Shown here: positions 27,413 through 39,104 of the stretch, piece after piece
Layout of the letters: every line of letters begins with the position of its first letter
How positions within the stretch are numbered: the stretch's first letter is position 1
Assembly: GCF_026278245.1 (NCBI RefSeq)
Contig: NZ_CP111079.1
Location: forward strand, 560,501-624,500
From: Pontibacter kalidii
Lineage (GTDB): Bacteria; Bacteroidota; Bacteroidia; Cytophagales; Hymenobacteraceae
Length of the DNA stretch: 64,000 nt
Direction of reading: 5' to 3'
Translations under genes and position numbers: made by a program
Notes under the pieces: generated by a model
Database searches by the model: none
What the model was told of the DNA's origin: nothing
What the model saw: only the letters and a program-made list of their open reading frames with translations

Positions 27413-27420
27413 TCGAATCG
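27413..27420 (+). promoter_or_regulatory. Predicted Bacteroidota -7 box (TACATTTG) of the sulfite reductase transcript
   Basis: TACATTTG fits the TAnnTTTG consensus of Bacteroidota housekeeping sigma. An ATTG (27387-27390) lies at a plausible -33 distance. It would start RNA just upstream of the SAM riboswitch. Confidence 0.7.
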
Positions 27421-27437
27421 TATTGCTACCCGCAATC

Positions 27438-27540
27438 AATTTATAGACGAAGAGGCGAGAGAACAGGCTCCGCGACCCTCTGGCAACCATCCGCTTTGGA
27501 AAGGTGCCACATCCTGCCCAACAAAGGGAAAATATAAATT
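27438..27540 (+). ncRNA. SAM-I (S-box) riboswitch upstream of the sulfite reductase operon
   Basis: The closing P1 helix is AATTTATA (27438-27445) with TATAAATT (27533-27540), an exact match. Inside are the S-box core segments GAAGAGGCGAGAGAACAGG, GACCCTCTGGCAACC, AAAGGTGCCACATCCTGCCC, arranged as in SAM-I aptamers (four-way junction, kink-turn and pseudoknot segments). It lies 17 nt after the predicted -7 box. No terminator hairpin follows directly. Instead a poly-Cys leader ORF starts 8 nt later, so SAM may control ribosome entry on the leader rather than a classic terminator. The family identity is strong; the output mode is inferred. Confidence 0.93.
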
Positions 27541-27548
27541 ACAACACC

Positions 27549-27668
27549 ATGAACGCAACACAAAAGACCTCTGCATCCGGAAGCGCCACTTTGCCATTTA
27601 GCTTTGCTTCCTTTTCCGCCATCGCTCCCGCCGCGATGTGTTGTTGCTGTTGCTGTTGTTCCTGCTAA
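27549..27668 (+). CDS. Poly-cysteine leader peptide 1 (39 aa)
   Basis: An ATG 8 nt after the SAM riboswitch opens a 39-codon frame, MNATQKTSASGS then a Phe/Ala/Ser-rich stretch, then AAMCCCCCCCSC and a TAA stop. Seven Cys codons in a row (TGT TGT TGC TGT TGC TGT TGT) are followed by Ser-Cys. A shorter version could begin at the inner ATG (27,636). It precedes sulfite reductase, so a ribosome would stall here when Cys-tRNA is scarce. This resembles amino-acid attenuation leaders; poly-Cys leaders are known from mycobacteria. A hairpin AGCTTC-TTCT-GAAGCT (27705-27720) begins 36 nt after the stop. Translation itself is not shown by the sequence. Confidence 0.75.
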   Translation: MNATQKTSASGSATLPFSFASFSAIAPAAMCCCCCCCSC

Positions 27669-27704
27669 GGGAATCCCTTCATCTTTCTTGGCCTAACTTC
27701 TTGT

Positions 27705-27720
27705 AGCTTCTTCTGAAGCT
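27705..27720 (+). promoter_or_regulatory. Hairpin downstream of poly-Cys leader 1
   Basis: AGCTTC-TTCT-GAAGCT, perfect 6-bp stem, followed after a short C/G-rich stretch by T-runs near 27,734 and 27,742. The T-run is not directly adjacent, so it is not a textbook terminator. A similar perfect hairpin sits at nearly the same distance after leader 3. Confidence 0.4.
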
Positions 27721-27808
27721 GTTTCCCGGGCCGTTTTCCTGTTTTTTTCCCGCGCTAACAGTGGTGGCAAGTATAAACTGCCTTTGCTGTGGCGCACAAC
27801 AATACCCT

Positions 27809-27940
27809 ATGCACGCAGCAACAAGTTTCCCGGTTTTACTTTTTACTCCTGCTACAGCCTCAGCTCTGGTAACTTCTTCGGCTTTCGCACAGGCTATGTG
27901 TTGTTGTTGCCAGCAGTTCTTTGGCATGCGCGCCTGTTAG
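27809..27940 (+). CDS. Poly-cysteine leader peptide 2 (43 aa)
   Basis: A second short frame between leader 1 and sulfite reductase. It starts MHAATSFPVLLFTPATAS, then after an Ala/Ser-rich part reads AQAMCCCCQQFFGMRAC and stops at TAG. The MCCCC block begins at codon 30, exactly as in leader 1, and the last residue before the stop is again Cys. The ORF ends 112 nt before the sulfite reductase ATG. The parallel layout suggests duplication of the leader or a second attenuation point. Expression is inferred only. Confidence 0.6.
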   Translation: MHAATSFPVLLFTPATASALVTSSAFAQAMCCCCQQFFGMRAC

Positions 27941-28052
27941 GTTAATCCATACTTTATATGTTATCAGCAGCGCCGCCAGTACAGGCCGTGTCTGCCATCC
28001 ATCTATTCTTTTATCTAAAGCCGCGTTGGCGGCAATTTATACTTGTATTACT

Positions 28053-30146
28053 ATGCAAAGCTTCAGAACAGAAATAGAAAACCCGATTGTAGAAAAGGAC
28101 ATCATCGAGCTGGAAAGAAAGATCCGGCTTTACCGCGAAGGCAAGCTCCAGGAAGATAAGTTCAAGAGCCTGCGCCTGGCCCGCGGCGTATACGGGCAGC
28201 GGCAGCTGGGCGTACAGATGGTGCGCATCAAACTCCCTTTCGGCAAGGTGACCACACAGCAGCTGCTCCGCATCGCCGACATCTCCGAAGAGTACTCTAC
28301 CGGCAACCTGCACCTGACCACGCGGCAGGACATACAGCTCCACTTCGTGAGCCTCGACAGAACCCCGGAGCTGTGGGCGAAGCTGGAAGAGGATGATGTC
28401 ACCATCCGCGAGGCCTGCGGTAACACGGTACGTAATGTCACGGCATCGCCGGAGGCAGGCATAGACCCCGGGGAGCCTTTTGATGTGTCGCCTTACGCCG
28501 ATGCCACCTTCCGCTATTTCCTGCGCAACCCGATCTGCCAGGAAATGGGTCGCAAGTTCAAAATGTCCTTCTCCTCCAGCGACTCCGACACGGCCATGGC
28601 TTACATGCACGACCTGGGCTTTATTGCGAAGGTAGAAAATGGAGTGCGCGGTTTTAAAGTGATGATCGGCGGCGGCTTGGGCGCACAGCCGGCGCTGGCG
28701 CATACTGCTTTTGAATTTCTGCCCGAGGATAAAATCATCCCGTTCATCGAGGGTGTGCTGCGTATTTTTGACCGCCACGGCGAGCGCAACAACCGCAACA
28801 AGGCCCGCTTTAAGTACCTGATTACCAAGTTAGGGCTGGAAGAGGTGCTGCGCCTGGTGAACGAAGAGTATAGAGCGCTGAAGTCGCACAGGTTCGAGAT
28901 CGACACAAGTATAGATTTCAACGCTGCGCTACCTATCGCCAAAGAGATACCGGACTACGTGATCGAGGATACTGACAAGTATAGCAAGTGGTTGAAGACG
29001 AACGTGTTCCGGCAGAAGCAGGACGGTTTTCACGGCGTCTATATCAAAGTGCAGCTCGGGGACATCAGCAGCGATACGGCTCGGAAACTGGTGCCGCTGG
29101 TGCGGGAATTTGCGGCCGATGACATCCGGGTGACGCAGGGGCAGAACCTGCTGCTCAAGTATGTGCGCCAGGAGGCGCTGCCCTATTTCTTTGCCAGACT
29201 GGATGAGTTGGGACTGGCTGAGCCGGGTTTCAACAGTGTGGCTGACATTACCACCTGCCCCGGCACCGATACCTGCAACCTGGGCATCTCGAACAGCACT
29301 AACATCACCAAGGTGCTGGAGCAGGTGATTATGGAGGAATACCCGGAGATGCTGTTCAATACGGATATCAAAATCAAGATCAGTGGCTGCATGAACTCCT
29401 GCGGTCAGCACGGCATGGCGAACCTGGGCTTTCACGGTTCTTCGCTGAAAAGCGGTAAAAGCGTTTTGCCGGCCCTGCAGGTGCTGTTAGGAGGCGGAAC
29501 CCTAAGTAACGGCGAAGGCCGCATCGCGCAGAAGCTCCTGAAAGTGCCCAGTAAGCGCGGACCGGAAGTGCTGCGCTACGTGCTGAACGATTACCTGGCC
29601 AACAAGCAGGGGGAGGAGCGCTTCAACGCCTATTACGACCGCCACGGCAAGGACTACTTTTACCAGCTGCTGAAGCCGCTCACAGACCTGACCACCCTCA
29701 CGCCGGAAGACTTTATAGACTGGGGGCACCAGGATGGTTTTCAGCCTGCCATTGGTGTGGGCGAGTGTGCCGGTGTGATGATTGACCTGGTGGCCACGCT
29801 GCTCTACGAAGCGGATGAGAAGCTGGAGTGGGCCGGGGAGGCGCTGGAAGAGCAACGATTTGCCGACGCGATCTACTATGGGTATGCTGCCTTTATCAGC
29901 ACAGCCAAGGCACTGCTGCTCGACAAGAGCGTGAGCACCAACACCCAGCACAGCATCATGGAGGAGTTTGACAAACATTTTGTAGAGACAGGCATCTTCA
30001 CATTTGAGCCTGATTTCAAAAGCAAAGTGCTGCAGCTGAACCAGCAGGAACCAGGCGAGGCCTTCGCCAAGGATTATTTGAACCAGGCGCTGCTGTTCCA
30101 GCAGGAGGCAACCCGCTACAGGAAAGAAAAAGCTGTGAATGCCTGA
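28053..30146 (+). CDS. Nitrite/sulfite reductase (siroheme, [4Fe-4S]) with HEPN-like C-terminal domain
   Basis: A 697-residue cytoplasmic enzyme. I chose ATG 28053 (MQSFRTEIENPIVEKDIIEL) because the 44 residues before it in the open frame overlap leader 2 and are not protein-like. Two ferredoxin-like half domains and siroheme/iron-sulfur domains are seen, with the Cys clusters TTCPGTDTCNLGI and ISGCMNSCGQHGMANLGFHG. The last roughly 130 residues (ECAGVMIDLVATLLYEADEK, FADAIYYGYAAFISTAKALL) look like a HEPN-type helical domain. It reduces sulfite to sulfide in assimilation; siroheme genes follow. The SAM riboswitch and poly-Cys leaders upstream fit sulfite rather than nitrite as substrate. Confidence 0.9.
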   Translation: MQSFRTEIENPIVEKDIIELERKIRLYREGKLQEDKFKSLRLARGVYGQRQLGVQMVRIKLPFGKVTTQQLLRIADISEEYSTGNLHLTTRQDIQLHFVSLDRTPELWAKLEEDDVTIREACGNTVRNVTASPEAGIDPGEPFDVSPYADATFRYFLRNPICQEMGRKFKMSFSSSDSDTAMAYMHDLGFIAKVENGVRGFKVMIGGGLGAQPALAHTAFEFLPEDKIIPFIEGVLRIFDRHGERNNRNKARFKYLITKLGLEEVLRLVNEEYRALKSHRFEIDTSIDFNAALPIAKEIPDYVIEDTDKYSKWLKTNVFRQKQDGFHGVYIKVQLGDISSDTARKLVPLVREFAADDIRVTQGQNLLLKYVRQEALPYFFARLDELGLAEPGFNSVADITTCPGTDTCNLGISNSTNITKVLEQVIMEEYPEMLFNTDIKIKISGCMNSCGQHGMANLGFHGSSLKSGKSVLPALQVLLGGGTLSNGEGRIAQKLLKVPSKRGPEVLRYVLNDYLANKQGEERFNAYYDRHGKDYFYQLLKPLTDLTTLTPEDFIDWGHQDGFQPAIGVGECAGVMIDLVATLLYEADEKLEWAGEALEEQRFADAIYYGYAAFISTAKALLLDKSVSTNTQHSIMEEFDKHFVETGIFTFEPDFKSKVLQLNQQEPGEAFAKDYLNQALLFQQEATRYRKEKAVNA

Positions 30147-31100: not shown

Positions 31101-32636
31101 ATGGATAGTCCTCAAGGAGACAATAGGAACGCTGCCCCTTCCCCAACAGAGGCAAGCGGTGCCGCTAATCCCTTATTCCCTGTTTTTCTGAAGCTGGAGG
31201 AGTTGCAGACTTTGGTGGTAGGCGGTGGGGCTGTTGGCTTGGAAAAGCTCTCGGCCATACTTGCCAATAGCCCCAAGGCGCAGGTGCGGCTGGTGGCGCC
31301 GGAGATCCATGTGGATATTTGGGCGCTGGCGGCAAAGCACCCGCAGGTAGAGCTGGCGGTGCGCGAGTTTCAGGAGGAGGACCTGACGGAGAAGGACCTG
31401 GTGCTGGTCGCCACCGACGATCACGTGCTCAACAAAGCCATCCGCGACCTGGCCAAGTCCAGGAAAATACTGGCCAACGTGGCCGACACTCCTGAGCTTT
31501 GTGACTTTTACCTGGGCTCGGTGGTGCAGAAAGGCAGCCTGAAGCTGGGCATTTCCACGAACGGTAAATCGCCCACGGTGGCCAAGCGCGTGAAGGAGGT
31601 GCTGAACGAGGCCTTTCCGGATGAGATAGACCAGGTACTGGGCAAGATGGGGAAGATCCGGGCGCAGCTGAAGGGCGATTTTGCCGAAAAGGTAAAGCAA
31701 CTGAACGCGCTTACGGAAGGCTTGGTAACACCTGTGCCGGTGCCTAGGGTACTACTCAAGTATAACCTGATCTCGGTGCTGGTGCTGGTATTTTCGGCCA
31801 TCGCCCTGATGGTGACGGGCCACCTGCTGTTCATCTACATCCCGTTGCAGACCATTGGAAACCTGGCCATGGATGTTGCCGGGCAGATCGACTCGGATAT
31901 CCTCATTTTTATACTTGCCGGCTTTGTGGCGCAGCTGATCGACGGAGCCCTGGGTATGGCTTATGGCGTGAGTGCCACTACTTTTCTGCTGAGCGTAGGG
32001 GTAAGCCCGGTGGCGGCCAGTGCCAGTGTGCACGCCTCCGAGATCTTTACCTCCGGCGTATCGGGCTGGATGCACCTGAAGTTCAGGAACGTGAACAGCA
32101 AACTATTCAAGAGCATTGTGCTGCCGGGCGTGCTCGGGGCCATACTGGGTGCGTACCTGCTTTTTACGTTTGAAGAGTACCTGTACGTCATCAAGCCGCT
32201 CGTGGCAGGATACACGTTGGTGCTGGGCATTCTGATCCTGCGCAAGGTGCTGCGAAAGAAGGTAAAGAAGAAGCCGGTGAAAAAGCTGGGCTTCCTGGCT
32301 ACGGCAGGCGGGTTTCTGGATGCCATCGGCGGTGGGGGCTGGGGGCCAATCGTGTCCTCCACGCTGATTGCCAAAGGCCGCAACCCCATGTATACTATCG
32401 GCTCCGTGAACCTGGCTGAGTTTTTCGTGTCTATTGCCAGTTCTGCCACCTTTGTGGCCTTTGCAGGTATCTCGCACTGGCAAATCATCCTGGGGCTTAT
32501 ACTGGGCGGCTGTATCTCGGCTCCTATCGGAGCCATGATGGCGCGTCGCCTGCCGGTTAAAACCATGATGATCATCGTGGGCATAGTGGTGATCATCGTC
32601 AGCCTGAGGCTGATCGTGATGGCCCTGCCGTTTTAA
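31101..32636 (+). CDS. Fusion of precorrin-2 dehydrogenase (Met8/CysG-N-like) with TSUP/TauE-family permease
   Basis: A 511-residue protein with two parts. Residues about 20-215 are a siroheme-synthase N-terminal domain: FPVFLKLEELQTLVVGGGAV, NAD-binding GGGAVG, LVATDDHVLNKAIRDLAK and GISTNGKSPTVAKRVKEVL. From about 220 the chain becomes a multi-pass TSUP permease (LIDGALGMAYGVSATTFLLS, GVSPVAASASVHASEIFTSG, GGFLDAIGGGGWGPIVSSTL). The first part oxidises precorrin-2 and may insert iron. The second would move sulfite, sulfate or an organosulfonate. There is no stop codon or frameshift at the junction. Located between cobA and a sulfur-metabolism PLP enzyme, it links cofactor making with sulfur transport. 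Confidence 0.9.
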   Translation: MDSPQGDNRNAAPSPTEASGAANPLFPVFLKLEELQTLVVGGGAVGLEKLSAILANSPKAQVRLVAPEIHVDIWALAAKHPQVELAVREFQEEDLTEKDLVLVATDDHVLNKAIRDLAKSRKILANVADTPELCDFYLGSVVQKGSLKLGISTNGKSPTVAKRVKEVLNEAFPDEIDQVLGKMGKIRAQLKGDFAEKVKQLNALTEGLVTPVPVPRVLLKYNLISVLVLVFSAIALMVTGHLLFIYIPLQTIGNLAMDVAGQIDSDILIFILAGFVAQLIDGALGMAYGVSATTFLLSVGVSPVAASASVHASEIFTSGVSGWMHLKFRNVNSKLFKSIVLPGVLGAILGAYLLFTFEEYLYVIKPLVAGYTLVLGILILRKVLRKKVKKKPVKKLGFLATAGGFLDAIGGGGWGPIVSSTLIAKGRNPMYTIGSVNLAEFFVSIASSATFVAFAGISHWQIILGLILGGCISAPIGAMMARRLPVKTMMIIVGIVVIIVSLRLIVMALPF

Positions 32637-34863: not shown

Positions 34864-36120
34864 TTAATACGCAATCTCGGCTACCATACCGGCACCTACT
34901 GTTGCAAAAGATGTCTCATCTACAAGTATAAATCCGCCGTTGGAGCGGTTGTCGGCATACTTGTCGAGCAGGAGTGGGGAGGCTGTTTTGATCTGCACGC
35001 GGCAGATGTCATTCAGTTGTACCTGGTCCACATCCTCCAGGTGATCGAGGGTGTTAATGTCGATCTTGTAATCGATGTGGCGTACTACGCAGCGGGTTTC
35101 GGTGGAGTTGTGGCGGAGCAGCAGCTTGGCACCCGGCTTCAGCGCCTTGTTGTGCATCCAGCAGATCTCTGCCTCAAACTCCTGTGCTACCTCCAGGTTA
35201 TCGGCGGCCTTCACGATCACATCGCCACGGCTAATGTCCACTTCATCCGCCAGCTGTAAAACGACCGACATCGGAGCGAAAGCCTCCTCCAGTAACCTGC
35301 CTCCCAGCTCCACGGATTTAACCGTAGTCGATTGGCCTGATGGCTGCACTGTCACCTTATCGCCTGCCTTATAGGTGCCGCTGATCACCTTACCGGCATA
35401 GCCCCGGTAGTCGTGGTGCTCGGCTGTGAGCGGGCGAATGACATACTGCACCGGGAAACGGGCATCCTCCAGGTTAAAGTCCTGCGATACGGGTACCTGC
35501 TCGAGGTGCTCCAACAGGCTCGGCCCCTGGTACCACGGCATGGTCAGCTCGGAGCCCTCCACAATGTTATCGCCTTTCAGGGCGCTCACAGGTATAAAGG
35601 TGATCTCTTTGGCGCGTAGCTTCCTGGCAAACTGCTTGTAGTCCTCCACAATCTGGTCGTATACCTGCTCATCATAGCCTACCAGGTCCATCTTGTTAAT
35701 ACAGATCACCAGGTGCGGGATACCCAGCAGCGAGGAGATGATGGAGTGGCGGCGTGTCTGCTCCTGCACGCCCTTACGGGCATCTACCAGGATGATGGAC
35801 AGGTTGGAGTTAGAGGCACCTGTTACCATGTTGCGGGTATACTGGATATGGCCCGGCGCATCGGCGATGATGAACTTACGTCGCTCAGTGGAGAAGTACT
35901 TGTAGGCCACATCAATGGTGATGCCCTGCTCGCGCTCCGCCTTCAGGCCGTCCGTAAGTAAGGAAAGGTCTACCTGCCCGTCCTCATTTACGCGGCCGGA
36001 GCTCTCGATGGCTTCCAACTGGTCGGCGAAGATCTGCTTGGTGTCGTAGAGCAGGCGACCGATGAGTGTGCTCTTGCCGTCGTCTACGTTGCCGGCAGTA
36101 ATAAATCGTAGTATGTCCAT
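34864..36120 (-). CDS. cysN: Sulfate adenylyltransferase subunit 1 (GTPase)
   Basis: A 418-residue translation-factor-type GTPase. G1 ITAGNVDDGKST (10-18), G3 DAPGHIQYTRNM and G4 NKMDLVGYDE are intact, followed by EF-Tu-like beta-barrels. The length matches CysN alone, without a fused APS kinase (CysC). With CysD it makes adenosine 5'-phosphosulfate from sulfate and ATP, driven by GTP. It overlaps cysD by one base (TAATG), so the two are translationally coupled. Confidence 0.96.
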   Translation of the reverse strand: MDILRFITAGNVDDGKSTLIGRLLYDTKQIFADQLEAIESSGRVNEDGQVDLSLLTDGLKAEREQGITIDVAYKYFSTERRKFIIADAPGHIQYTRNMVTGASNSNLSIILVDARKGVQEQTRRHSIISSLLGIPHLVICINKMDLVGYDEQVYDQIVEDYKQFARKLRAKEITFIPVSALKGDNIVEGSELTMPWYQGPSLLEHLEQVPVSQDFNLEDARFPVQYVIRPLTAEHHDYRGYAGKVISGTYKAGDKVTVQPSGQSTTVKSVELGGRLLEEAFAPMSVVLQLADEVDISRGDVIVKAADNLEVAQEFEAEICWMHNKALKPGAKLLLRHNSTETRCVVRHIDYKIDINTLDHLEDVDQVQLNDICRVQIKTASPLLLDKYADNRSNGGFILVDETSFATVGAGMVAEIAY

Positions 36121-37028
36121 TAAAAGTATCCTCCTTTCTTACGGTCTTCCATCGCTGTCTCCGACAGTTTGTCGTCGATGCGGGTGGCGCCGCGCTCACT
36201 TATCTTTGACTCCAGAATCTCTGCAATTACCCCATCAATGTCGTGGGCTATACTTTCCACAGCGGCCGTACAGGTCATGTCGCCCACGGTGCGGAAACGC
36301 ACCTGCTTGGTCACGACCACATCGTCGGGCTCCTGGAAAATAAAGTCAGACCAGGCCATCAGCTTGCCGTCGCGCACCAGGCACTCGCGCTCGTGGGTGT
36401 AGTAGATGTTTGGCAGGGCTATTCCCTCGCGTTTAATGTAGTTCCAAACGTCCAGCTCGGTCCAGTTAGAGATCGGGAACACGCGCACGTTCTCGCCTTT
36501 GGTGATGCGGCCGTTGTAGATGTTCCAGAGCTCGGGGCGCTGGCGCTTCGGATCCCACTGACCAAACTCGTCGCGCACCGAGAAGATGCGTTCCTTGGCG
36601 CGGGCCTTTTCCTCGTCGCGACGGGCACCGCCAATGCAGGCGTCAAAACCAAACTCCTCGATGGTCTCCAGCAAGGTATGGGTCTGCAGCGCGTTGCGGC
36701 TGGCATAGCGGCCCTTCGGCTCCGAAAGGTTCTTGCGTTTAATGGTTTCCTCCACGTTGCGCACGATCAGTTTCTCACCCAGGCGCTCGGCCAGCTCATC
36801 GCGGTAGCGGATCGCCTCCGGGAAATTGTGCCCGGTATCGATGTGCACCAGCGGGAACGGGAACTTGCCAGGGCGGAAAGCCTTCTCGGCCAGGCGTACC
36901 AAGGTGATGGAATCCTTGCCTCCGGAGAAAAGCAGGGCCGGCTTCTCGAATTGCCCCGCTACTTCGCGCATAATGTGGATCGCCTCTGCCTCCAGCTGAT
37001 CGAGGTAATCCAGGTATCTTTTTGTCAT
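36120..37028 (-). CDS. cysD: Sulfate adenylyltransferase subunit 2
   Basis: A 302-residue PP-loop ATP pyrophosphatase-type protein. The ATP motif is LLFSGGKDSITLVRL, with HIDTGHNFPEAIRYRDEL, ARAKERIFSVRDEFGQWDPK and VFPISNWTELDVWNYI as CysD family blocks. It activates sulfate together with CysN. The spacer to cysH (112 nt) is filled by low-complexity CTAACTC-type repeats. Confidence 0.97.
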   Translation of the reverse strand: MTKRYLDYLDQLEAEAIHIMREVAGQFEKPALLFSGGKDSITLVRLAEKAFRPGKFPFPLVHIDTGHNFPEAIRYRDELAERLGEKLIVRNVEETIKRKNLSEPKGRYASRNALQTHTLLETIEEFGFDACIGGARRDEEKARAKERIFSVRDEFGQWDPKRQRPELWNIYNGRITKGENVRVFPISNWTELDVWNYIKREGIALPNIYYTHERECLVRDGKLMAWSDFIFQEPDDVVVTKQVRFRTVGDMTCTAAVESIAHDIDGVIAEILESKISERGATRIDDKLSETAMEDRKKGGYF

Positions 37029-37140: not shown

Positions 37141-37860
37141 TTATCTGGCGTGCAGCCCGCACTCTTTTTTTGAGTTATCCTCCCACCACCAGCGGCCGGC
37201 GCGGAAGTCCTCGCCCTCGGCAATGGCACGGGTGCACGGGGCGCAGCCAATGCTCACGAAGCCCTTGTCGTGCAACGGGTTGTATGGGATGTGCAGTGCT
37301 TTTACAGCTGCCCATACCTCGTCTAAAGTATAGTGCAGCAGCGGGTTATACTTGATGAGCTGGTGCGCCTCGTCCCACTCCAGTAGCTGCAGCTCCTGCC
37401 GCGCGCCCGATTGCTCGGAGCGGATGCCGGTAACCCATACCTGCACGCCCTGCAGGGCACGGTTCAGGGGCTCCACCTTGCGGATATAGCAGCACTGCTT
37501 GCGGTCATCGATGGAGTTGTAGAAGCTCATCGGGCCCTTTTCGTTCACCAGTTGCTCCACGGCCTCGTGCCTGGGGAAGTATACTTCTATCTTCTTTCTG
37601 TAACGCTGGTTTGTTTTGTGCAGCAGGGTATAGCTCTCGTTAAAGAGACGGCCGGTATCGAGGGTGAACACGCGGATCGGCAATTCCTGCTCAAAAATGT
37701 GGTGCGTAATGAGCTGGTCTTCAATACCCAGGCTGGAAGAGAAGGCGATGTTGCCGCTGAACTCCTCCGCCAGGTAGCGCAGGCCCTCAGCTGCCGGCAA
37801 ACCGGCCATGGCAGCGCGCAAGGAGTCTAGCCGGGCCAGAAGTTCCTGTGATAAATCCAT
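37141..37860 (-). CDS. cysH: Phosphoadenylyl/adenylyl-sulfate reductase, iron-sulfur type
   Basis: A 239-residue PAPS/APS reductase. PP-loop-type nucleotide segment FSSSLGIEDQLITHHIFE, then Cys-Cys in DDRKQCCYIRKVEPL, Cys-x-x-Cys in IGCAPCTRAIAEG and the catalytic Cys near the end (KKECGLHAR). The CC...CxxC pattern marks the [4Fe-4S] form that uses APS directly. This fits the absence of an APS kinase in the cluster. It is the first gene of cysH-cysD-cysN and lies behind the SAM riboswitch and poly-Cys leader. Confidence 0.95.
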   Translation of the reverse strand: MDLSQELLARLDSLRAAMAGLPAAEGLRYLAEEFSGNIAFSSSLGIEDQLITHHIFEQELPIRVFTLDTGRLFNESYTLLHKTNQRYRKKIEVYFPRHEAVEQLVNEKGPMSFYNSIDDRKQCCYIRKVEPLNRALQGVQVWVTGIRSEQSGARQELQLLEWDEAHQLIKYNPLLHYTLDEVWAAVKALHIPYNPLHDKGFVSIGCAPCTRAIAEGEDFRAGRWWWEDNSKKECGLHAR

Positions 37861-37933
37861 ATAGCTAAAAGTTTGAATCTGTGATAAACTGGACTGCTAA
37901 ATACAGTTTTCGATTAAATACTGCCGTTGCTCC

Positions 37934-38008
37934 ACCTGTTACAGGTACAGCGGCAAAGGATGCTCTGCACTTGCTGCTGCTCCGCAGCAAAGCCTGATTC
38001 AAATCAGG
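37934..38008 (-). promoter_or_regulatory. Series of hairpins in the cysH leader
   Basis: On the - strand after leader 3: CCTGATT-TG-AATCAGG (37993-38008), TTGCTGC-GGAGCA-GCAGCAA (37971-37990) and ACCTG-TAA-CAGGT (37934-37946). The first begins 28 nt after the leader stop codon. None has a T-tract, so termination by Rho or control of translation is more likely than an intrinsic terminator. Confidence 0.45.
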
Positions 38009-38036
38009 GAAGGAGCAAGGTGAGGAGGTGCTTCGA

Positions 38037-38168
38037 TCAGCACATACAACAACAGCAGCAACAGTACCCTTGCATGGTGCGGGCAGTATTGGGAATAATG
38101 GTAGCCTGAGCAGTGGTGAGGCCACGGCGGGCTATACTTGGTGCTGGTGTGTTCGTGTAGGTTTGCAT
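38037..38168 (-). CDS. Poly-cysteine leader peptide 3 (43 aa) upstream of cysH
   Basis: On the - strand, an ATG at 38168 opens 10 nt after the P1 helix of the SAM riboswitch. The peptide starts MQTYTNTPAPSIARR and ends TMQGYCCCCCCMC before TGA: six Cys codons in a row, then Met-Cys. An inner ATG at 38,075 would give the 12-residue MQGYCCCCCCMC. Length, distance to the riboswitch, position of the Cys run and terminal Cys all parallel leader 1, although the rest of the peptide differs. It is the expected form of a cysteine-sensing leader for the sulfate-reduction operon. Confidence 0.75.
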   Translation of the reverse strand: MQTYTNTPAPSIARRGLTTAQATIIPNTARTMQGYCCCCCCMC

Positions 38169-38178
38169 TGCGTTGTCT

Positions 38179-38282
38179 ATTTATATGCCCCGGACCAGCC
38201 GGGATAGGATTTGGCACCTTCCCCGACTTGGGAGGTTGCCAGAGGGTCAGGGAGCCTATTCTCTCGCCTCTTCTCTATAAAT
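38179..38282 (-). ncRNA. SAM-I (S-box) riboswitch upstream of cysHDN
   Basis: On the - strand the P1 helix is ATTTATA (38276-38282) with TATAAAT (38179-38185). The core shows GAAGAGGCGAGAGAATAGG, TGACCCTCTGGCAACC, GAAGGTGCCAAATCCTATCC, nearly identical to the aptamer at 27,438. The 3' edge of P1 is 10 nt from the leader 3 start codon, with no terminator between them. This is the mirror image of the + strand cassette. Confidence 0.93.
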
Positions 38283-38318
38283 CTTTTACAGACGTTACCG
38301 TCCTTTTTACTAATGATG

Positions 38319-38326
38319 CAAAATTA
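38319..38326 (-). promoter_or_regulatory. Predicted -7 box (TAATTTTG) of the cysHDN transcript
   Basis: On the - strand TAATTTTG fits TAnnTTTG. The predicted start leaves about 28 nt before the riboswitch, including a small GACG-GTAA-CGTC hairpin. A -33 element is not clear. Confidence 0.6.
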
Positions 38327-38384
38327 CATATTTTTCTGAACTGTGTAAATTTTGTGCGTAATTTATTCTGAAACAGGCGATAAA

Positions 38385-39104
38385 TCAGCCTGCCAGCCTG
38401 GTTACGTACTTTACCAGCGAGCGCTTGGCAATGGGCAGCAGCGACTGCTCCAGCGGTACCGGAAAGGTAGACACGGCGGCAAAGGTGGCCGGGTTTGGCA
38501 GTTCCTTCCGCTCCTTTATCAGCTGCGCCTTCAGGTGCTCATGCGTCAGGGCCAGGCCGCGGCGCACGGTTTGCAGGTGCTGTGTGTTAATGCCCCTGTA
38601 CTTCTCGTAGGTATTCTCAAAAACGGTGATGTGGTAGCTGTACACCCGGGTTTCCTTGCCGGGTAAACTCTCCAGGAAAAGGTAGCCCTCGTTGTGGTAA
38701 ATAGGCGTGATGCCCACCGGGGTGATCTCGAGGTGGCGCTCCACGAAATCATACAGCTCTTTGCCCTCCTCCAGCGCCTGGCTGAAAAGCGGCGTGGCAT
38801 ATTGGATGATCTCCTCTATTTGCTCCATTGTTTCATCGTCCTGCACGATCTTCTCATACACCAGCTCCAGCTTCTCGAAGTCGGCGCGGCTGATGCGCTG
38901 CGGGAAAGACTCGTACACCAGTTGCTTGTGCTCCTTTACCTGCTTGAGATTGCGGTAATGCATGATCAGATCGGAGAAAATCGGGTAGAGGCGTTGTTTG
39001 CCAAACTCGGTTTTGGCGGCCTGCAGGTAGGCCAGCAGCAGGTATTTCTTGTACTCAAAATCCAGCAGCCCCTCGGTAAGCCAGTTGACAGGTAGGGTGT
39101 TCAT
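38385..39104 (-). CDS. Conserved-looking hypothetical protein (239 aa)
   Basis: A 239-residue soluble protein beginning MNTLPVNWLTEGLLDFEYKK, largely alpha-helical and rich in Leu, Glu and Tyr. A central segment (EGYLFLESLPGKETRVYSYH) may be a short beta-sheet. It has no signal or membrane segment and no motif I can name. It ends just downstream of the cysH promoter. Function unknown. Confidence 0.8.
   Translation of the reverse strand: MNTLPVNWLTEGLLDFEYKKYLLLAYLQAAKTEFGKQRLYPIFSDLIMHYRNLKQVKEHKQLVYESFPQRISRADFEKLELVYEKIVQDDETMEQIEEIIQYATPLFSQALEEGKELYDFVERHLEITPVGITPIYHNEGYLFLESLPGKETRVYSYHITVFENTYEKYRGINTQHLQTVRRGLALTHEHLKAQLIKERKELPNPATFAAVSTFPVPLEQSLLPIAKRSLVKYVTRLAG

Follow-up and report, generated by a model that had tools for sequence, protein, structure and literature searches.

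The riboswitch and the leader-peptide attenuator are each known as separate parts. Among attenuators, the closest described systems, as far as the cited portions of the papers go, are the terminator-less Cys leader peptides that a 2005 study predicted for Actinobacteria, with a suggestion of Rho (PMC1262725), and the mycobacterial poly-Cys small ORFs (Canestrari et al. 2020), cited as cysteine-responsive attenuators in PMC13236596 and PMC9094748. Among riboswitches, the cited parts of the respective papers describe translational SAM-I riboswitches with the initiation site in the 3' side of P1 and a P1-start distance of less than 15 nt (PMC2258182), a Xanthomonas SAM-I riboswitch that senses uncharged initiator tRNA (PMC7270179), and the B12 riboswitches with uORFs of M. 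tuberculosis metE and ppe2, the latter with termination-reinitiation at an overlapping start (PMC11260477).

The leaders described here, from Pontibacter kalidii and its relatives, resemble the mycobacterial and actinobacterial Cys leaders in having a Cys run near the stop, a place before cys genes and no conserved terminator. They differ from the mycobacterial poly-Cys ORFs, which are leaderless by title and for which the cited text mentions no aptamer, in that a SAM-I aptamer stands directly upstream and Met/Cys mixtures occur. The leaderless arrangement, in which the transcript starts at the ORF, is thus not what the sequence predicts for these loci, with a conserved aptamer directly upstream. 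The aptamer and the P1-start distance below 15 nt are shared with translational SAM-I as described in the cited part of PMC2258182, but the start codon here is that of a leader ORF and not that of the gene. As in Xanthomonas, SAM and tRNA inputs would act on one SAM-I leader; there, by the cited text of PMC7270179, the expression platform binds the tRNA directly, whereas here a ribosome would read codons. A link between a riboswitch and uORF translation, which here is inferred, is shared with the M. tuberculosis B12 riboswitches, for whose uORFs the cited portion of PMC11260477 mentions no run of amino-acid regulatory codons. Tandem riboswitches likewise bring two-input logic into one leader, but with two aptamers; a term search of the tandem-riboswitch review (PMC9481103) found none of leader peptide, uORF, cysteine and Bacteroid. 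The combination of riboswitch and leader-peptide attenuator was not found described in an open-licence paper library, a scope outside which lie most subscription journals and all preprints, making this weak evidence.

We read the architecture as a putative two-stage RNA regulator, in which SAM would gate the start of a leader peptide and the Cys/Met codons of that peptide would sense charged tRNA, and we put the probability of this reading at roughly 0.72.

The cysI and cysH leaders of the window

The window (the whole 64-kb stretch of DNA analysed) holds two Rfam matches at gathering score, both SAM and each the single aptamer of its leader; no T-box match at gathering score and no leader with two aptamers was found in the same scan. 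The first aptamer lies at 27438-27540 on the forward strand (RF00162, 60.7 bits, E 1.3e-11, against a gathering score of 44.4 in cmscan) and has the P1 3' strand TATAAATT. It was aligned with 29 others to give an alignment of 30 leader-type aptamers (A2), chosen by us, in which the TATAAAT columns show no variation. An 8-nt spacer (27541-27548) separates the end of P1 from the ATG of leader ORF 1, a predicted ORF of 39 aa at 27549-27668 (+), MNATQ...AAMCCCCCCCSC, whose C-terminus reads MCCCCCCCSC. Its seven-Cys codon run, mixed TGT and TGC, occupies 27639-27659. The P1 3' strand and spacer together (27533-27548, +) form a putative initiation region for the leader ORF, which would be masked upon P1 formation. 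The sequence-only reading had described just such a SAM-I aptamer, 8-nt gap and 39-codon ORF with seven Cys, and this description was borne out in full.

Leader ORF 2 (27809-27940, +) is a predicted ORF of 43 aa, MHAAT...AMCCCCQQFFGMRAC, with a second run of four Cys codons at 27899-27910 and the C-terminal end GMRAC. Its MCCCC begins at codon 30, the same position as in leader ORF 1; the coincidence, pointed out in the sequence-only reading, holds in the window genome, but the position of the Cys run varies across the ten loci in which ORF 2 was found. Near the start of ORF 2, the GCAGCAACAA segment (27815-27824, +) is able to pair with the first Cys run. Three hairpins were also marked in the leader: a small one at the stop codon of ORF 1 (27659-27672, UUCC-loop-GGRA, helix 2 of A3), one 5' of cysI (27970-27991, helix 4 of A3), and a terminator-like GCCGC-UUGG-GCGGC hairpin just 5' of cysI (28020-28033), all on the forward strand.

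The gene that follows (28053-30146, +, ATG at 28053) encodes a cysI-like sulfite/nitrite reductase of 697 aa with Pfam NIR_SIR and NIR_SIR_ferr domains. The earlier name, sulfite reductase, is kept because the protein belongs to the NIR_SIR family and the gene has siroheme and cysHDN neighbours, but the protein falls below every NCBIfam sulfite- or nitrite-reductase cut-off. Its C-terminal region is HEPN-like, with a score of 21.7 just under the Pfam cut-off of 22. Nearby, an ORF at 31101-32636 (+) combines, by Pfam, the N-terminal domain of siroheme synthase (NAD_binding_7) with a sulfite-exporter domain of the TauE/SafE family, a joining of siroheme synthesis to sulfite transport that looks unusual.

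The second copy, aptamer and leader ORF together, runs from 38283 to 38037 on the reverse strand, 5' of cysH, and does not figure in the sequence-only reading. Its leader-type SAM-I aptamer (38178-38283, -) scores 73.2 bits against the gathering score of 44.4, and the ATG of its leader ORF (38037-38168, -; 43 aa, MQTYTNT...GYCCCCCCMC) stands 9 nt past P1, with a run of six Cys codons at 38046-38063. In both copies, therefore, the start lies within the 15 nt of a translational SAM-I riboswitch, at 8 nt and 9 nt, and is the start of the leader ORF. A GUGC...GCAC hairpin at the leader stop codon (38028-38043, -) was recognised by eye in alignments of part of the group. Downstream are cysH, of the PAPS reductase family (37141-37860, -), a cysD-like gene named from its domain and position (36120-37028, -), and cysN (34864-36120, -).

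A run of Cys codons alone is not rare here and was not used as evidence: genome-wide, TGYx4 has 206 occurrences where the reversed pattern has 24, and within the window it has 10 where shuffles give 0.26. The case rests instead on the reading frame of the run, on its site 3' of the aptamer and on its conservation.

The 5.05-Mb genome contains five SAM-I riboswitches. Four are of the leader type, with a TATAAATT-like P1 3' strand, standing 5' of cysI, cysH, metY and a gene with an Na+/H+ antiporter family domain (NhaC-type), and all four have a Cys-rich ORF with its ATG 7, 8, 9 or 9 nt past P1; the fifth stands 5' of a metH-like gene and has no Cys ORF. The same split appears among 35 SAM-I loci: P1 ends of the GATAAG kind mostly precede terminator hairpins, with no Cys ORF, and leader ORFs follow the TATAAATT-like P1 ends; two of these ORFs (L013 and L027) contain Cys and Met yet lack a three-Cys run. 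At L326 and L328 a 389-aa protein ORF takes the leader's position, its ATG following the leader-type aptamer, an arrangement which indicates that the leader ATG occupies the gene-start position of a translational SAM-I riboswitch.

Leader ORFs in the genus and in the class

Loss of the Cys run in relatives that keep the same riboswitch, which the sequence-only reading had named as evidence against itself, was not seen at cysI. A search of 50 genus genomes recovered the gene in 22, and every one of these loci has, upstream of the gene, both an ORF with four or more Cys in a row and the aptamer, whose core was detected by pattern in 21 and by Rfam in L087 (SAM-I, 68.3 bits); for most cysI and cysH loci, detection of the SAM core was by pattern, not by Rfam. 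Leader ORF 2 is present in ten of the 22 (L066-L075, the window and nine relatives) at lengths of 40-47 aa. Its start, M(R/Q/P/H)(T/A)A, and its end are conserved, and its middle (codons 7-18) varies, with 54-64% of sites differing per codon position. An eleventh locus, L077, has a Cys ORF at the place of ORF 2, but an unlike one.

For cysH, 70 of 115 places were read. All 24 of the window type (L096-L119, 67-100% identity to the query) have both the SAM core and a Cys ORF, the latter with four or more consecutive Cys in 23. Among the other 46 (L120-L165), the SAM core is present in 31, 22 of them with an ORF of at least three Cys within 400 nt (GTG and ATG starts mixed) and nine without; the remaining 15 comprise eight with a Cys ORF and seven with neither. 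Six of those seven belong to a second cysH type of the same genus (56-58% identity; L136, L140, L143, L161, L163, L164), in which neither SAM core nor Cys ORF was found in 1 kb upstream at any of the six loci read. Seven cysH loci of genus label g6 (L123, L131, L145, L149, L150, L155, L165) have a 22-aa ORF like MVYSSHTKRMRFCCCSSGCCCC before the gene; none has a SAM core by pattern, and the two checked gave no Rfam match.

Beyond the genus, loci were collected with a covariance model, R1, of 30 leader-type aptamer sequences. Because R1 stops at the ATG, Cys content played no part in the search. Matches, including SAM-I of both kinds, were found in 233 of 395 Bacteroidia genomes, and 89 loci high in the list were hand-picked as a class sample, some second hits per genome and others being omitted. 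An ATG ORF of 20-60 codons was found in 49 of the 89, its start having to fall in a narrow interval from -12 to +6 relative to the model end. At least three Cys in the last 12 codons were counted in 41 of these 49 (eight being without), compared with 16 of 973 length-matched control ORFs from the same loci, and at least four Cys plus Met in 43 of 49, compared with 7 of 973; locus counts of this kind are not phylogenetically independent. When the same stretch is read in other frames, the Cys criterion is reached in 11, 0 and 0 of the 49. No Cys ORF was found in the 23 loci called metH.

The 40 loci without an ORF in the search interval include six called metY and two called metX. At least one true case was missed by that interval, namely L297, where leader-type SAM and a 42-aa ORF ending in CCCCCCC accompany a cysH-like gene. 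Close to that gene a cysI-like start was read on the opposite strand, and the two may be divergent. At L281, L288 and L299, high-scoring aptamers stand 5' of a sulfhydrylase-like gene with no Cys leader. The 41 Cys-leader loci fall in 13 family labels (f1, f2, f3, f6, f20, f31, f34, f35, f40, f41, f42, f46, f49), and L297 adds f63. Tying the layout to sulfite reductase, as the sequence-only reading did, proved too narrow: it also occurs 5' of cysH, metY, metX, an NhaC-type transporter and other genes. Gene names in the class sample and codon counts come from regular expressions, and the class "other" includes several metX-like genes.

A named example is L263, from a Chitinophagales MAG, where SAM-I (85.2 bits) and an ORF ending in CCCCCCC stand 5' of cysH. 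Across 80 cysH loci of named organisms, searched by pattern, we found a SAM core in three, an ORF with at least three Cys in 11 and both in only two, so that aptamer plus Cys ORF before cysH is not common beyond the home family. Outside class Bacteroidia, none of the seven loci of a phylum scan (six metY-like, one metH-like) had a Cys ORF. Poly-Cys leaders also occur with no Rfam match (L123, L131, L185, L189, L223, L273), as do poly-Cys ORFs before cysH with no aptamer, for example in Rufibacter; the two modules are thus separable and assort separately. At L179 an aptamer that the pattern search had missed stands roughly 110 nt 5' of the poly-Cys ORF.

Two further observations concern the layout itself. 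In L022, L029 and L330, SAM-I and a poly-Cys leader stand 5' of a protein with ATP-grasp-like Pfam matches, which were scanned in L022, the other two proteins beginning alike. In addition, R1-matching SAM aptamers lie divergently about 300 nt apart at G109:C5:292693-292809 and 293089-293203 and at G103:C4:400051-400170 and 400476-400588, which suggests that in each case two leaders share a single divergent promoter region.

Codons, RNA structure and expression platform

The codons near the leader stop follow the pathway of the downstream gene. At least two Met in the last 14 codons are found in 40 of 62 metY/metX leaders compared with 3 of 49 cysI/cysH leaders (identical peptides removed; Fisher p 7e-11, uncorrected for relatedness), and the runs themselves read, for example, CMCMCCCC (metY), CCCMCMCM (metX-like) and CCCCCCC (cysH). 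The leaders thus have what is expected of an attenuator, a short ORF with pathway-matched regulatory codons close to its stop. Such matching by gene is needed by a Cys/Met sensor read by ribosomes and is predicted neither by a metal-binding role nor by a structural RNA role.

This bears on the proposal that translation as such is what matters, SAM-controlled translation protecting the transcript or coupling to the gene, with the Cys run either incidental or serving the peptide, for instance as a small Cys-rich protein that binds metals or thiols. Cys-rich peptides can bind metals. A riboswitch and a uORF can also interplay with no tRNA sensing, as in the part of the M. tuberculosis study cited (PMC11260477). 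Against this, the N-terminal codons vary while the start and the terminal run are kept, Met accompanies Cys mainly before Met-pathway genes, and in most leaders read no more than a few codons separate the run from the stop. We regard this explanation as improbable.

Codon-position differences point to coding in the cysH run. Across 12 cysH loci, run codons -7 to -4 have pairwise differences of 0.00, 0.04 and 0.40 at codon positions 1, 2 and 3, compared with about equal values of 0.27, 0.25 and 0.23 in codons 2-8 of the same leaders, and this freedom of the third position in the run is a mark of coding. Cys codon use in the leaders is TGT 203 and TGC 120. In the cysI run (16 loci) the third position is quiet too (0.09), which may reflect RNA pairing, and this observation lends something to the view that the UGY repeats are RNA structure, pairing with downstream GCA repeats, and that no peptide is made. 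A GCAGCA segment does stand opposite Cys run 1 in cysI, and some loci have strong duplexes, such as L067 (z -4.6) and L074 (z -3.6). That view has to contend with the in-frame ATG, the stop and the Cys/Met mixtures, with the third-position freedom in cysH, with other frames that are without most of the signal, and with pairing that is not conserved in cysH; we consider it very unlikely. As a general feature, a duplex between the Cys run and an anti-Cys segment further downstream was rejected, pairing energies being weak overall and mostly near shuffled level in 22 cysI and 24 cysH leaders.

A five-helix structure model was drawn from ten cysI leaders. In this model 90.0% of cells are paired, compared with 87.7% when shuffled and 25-60% when slid, the slides favouring the model because the structure was drawn from the same ten sequences. 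Four pairs show both-sided changes, a number reached by 30 of 500 shuffles, which amounts to moderate covariation. In A3, helix 1, between the GCAGCAACAA segment and Cys run 1, is paired in 90% of cells with zero covariation, and its duplex energies are weak overall. Helix 2, at the leader stop, has both-sided changes in two of three pairs with 76.7% of cells paired and is absent from L069/L070, and helix 4 has both-sided changes in two of seven pairs with 92.8% paired. The terminator-like hairpin just 5' of cysI shows one-sided changes only. Consensus folding of the cysH leaders found little besides the stop hairpin. Some of the cysI and cysH leaders have a small hairpin around the leader stop; a stop-enclosing hairpin as a general part was rejected, being significant in 18% of 22 cysI, 4% of 24 cysH, 18% of 11 metY and 4% of 45 class leaders. 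From run pairing, consensus folding and stop hairpins, no antiterminator of general occurrence emerged.

Classical attenuation by an intrinsic terminator, in which pausing at the Cys codons permits an antiterminator and completion of the leader peptide leads to a terminator before the gene, would draw on the conserved hairpin before cysI and on three terminator-like hairpins in the window leader, at 27620, 27667 and 28020, where shuffles give 1.5. In the class, 22% of 45 leaders have a significant terminator score. The corresponding figures are 18% of 22 cysI, 8% of 24 cysH and 0% of 11 metY leaders, obtained with a near-identical score, compared with 59% of 46 leaderless SAM-I loci, whose score is 17.0 against 8.2 when shuffled. 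No terminator was found in the window at 37800-38400, around the cysH leader. With 0-22% of leader loci significant, an intrinsic terminator was rejected as the general platform, and we hold classical attenuation of this kind to be unlikely, though the best placed of the alternatives considered here.

Two other candidate platforms were weighed. Translational coupling by overlap is unlikely, as the median gap between leader stop and gene is 388 nt for cysI and 193 nt for cysH; the median is 130 nt for genus metY and 121 nt for the class. As for Rho, the 80 nt past the leader stop are richer in C than in G in 20 of 22 cysI and 22 of 24 cysH loci, with a mean skew of 0.08-0.10 compared with -0.025 and 0.014 in upstream tiles. 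Because the leader ORFs themselves have the same skew (0.092), the excess of C is a weak sign of Rho, compatible with Rho loading.

Proposed regulation and its meaning

The two-stage regulator would work as follows. At the first stage, SAM binding would stabilise P1, whose A/U-rich 3' strand ends 7-9 nt before the leader ATG, and P1 formation would mask the region about 8-16 nt 5' of that ATG, so that no ribosome starts. Bacteroidetes are described as being without Shine-Dalgarno sequences, and in F. johnsoniae start regions are less structured from -20 to +20 and structure there tunes initiation (PMC6847099, as far as the cited part goes). On these grounds, the SAM-bound state would be the state in which the leader is untranslated. 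At the second stage, low SAM would allow the leader to be translated, and scarce Cys-tRNA would make the ribosome pause in the codons by the stop; in metY/metX leaders, scarcity of Met-tRNA would also cause pausing at the Cys/Met codons. A paused ribosome would keep the leader permissive, by blocking Rho entry, by refolding of the RNA or by both, and the operon would be expressed; with no paused ribosome, the downstream leader would be closed. At cysI, the second Cys leader would act as a second checkpoint. SAM, as an end product, is expected to repress, which makes an untranslated leader the OFF state, and expression is then expected only when SAM and Cys (or Cys and Met) are both low.

The sequence comparisons show the aptamer, the position of the ORF, the conservation of its codons, the phylogenetic spread and the lack of a general terminator; from there we infer translation, SAM binding, stalling and the Rho or refolding step. 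The interpretation is well supported as an architecture, and the physiological role is putative. For the proposal that SAM acts on the start of the leader and Cys supply on passage through it, as the sequence-only reading had put it, comparative support is strong, because the spacing in this genome is 7-9 nt, the Cys codons of the cysH run are conserved with free third positions, Met appears before Met-pathway genes and the terminators of leaderless SAM-I loci are mostly lacking. On balance we also favour, somewhat less firmly, a Bacteroidia-wide class of leaders in which the aptamer would license a leader peptide, gene-tuned Cys/Met codons would set pausing, the whole would form a NOR-type gate on SAM and charged Cys/Met-tRNA, and cysI would have a double checkpoint.

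If true, the riboswitch and the leader-peptide attenuator, which are usually treated apart, are joined in one leader, and this combined regulator spans no fewer than 13 family labels in a group for which an absence of Shine-Dalgarno sites has been described (PMC6847099). The reading predicts gene-specific codon tuning of sulfur sensing. It is also a caution for the annotation of riboswitch targets, in which the ORF nearest the 3' side of an aptamer can be overlooked. Sulfur-assimilation genes in many Bacteroidia probably read SAM and amino-acid supply via one RNA leader.
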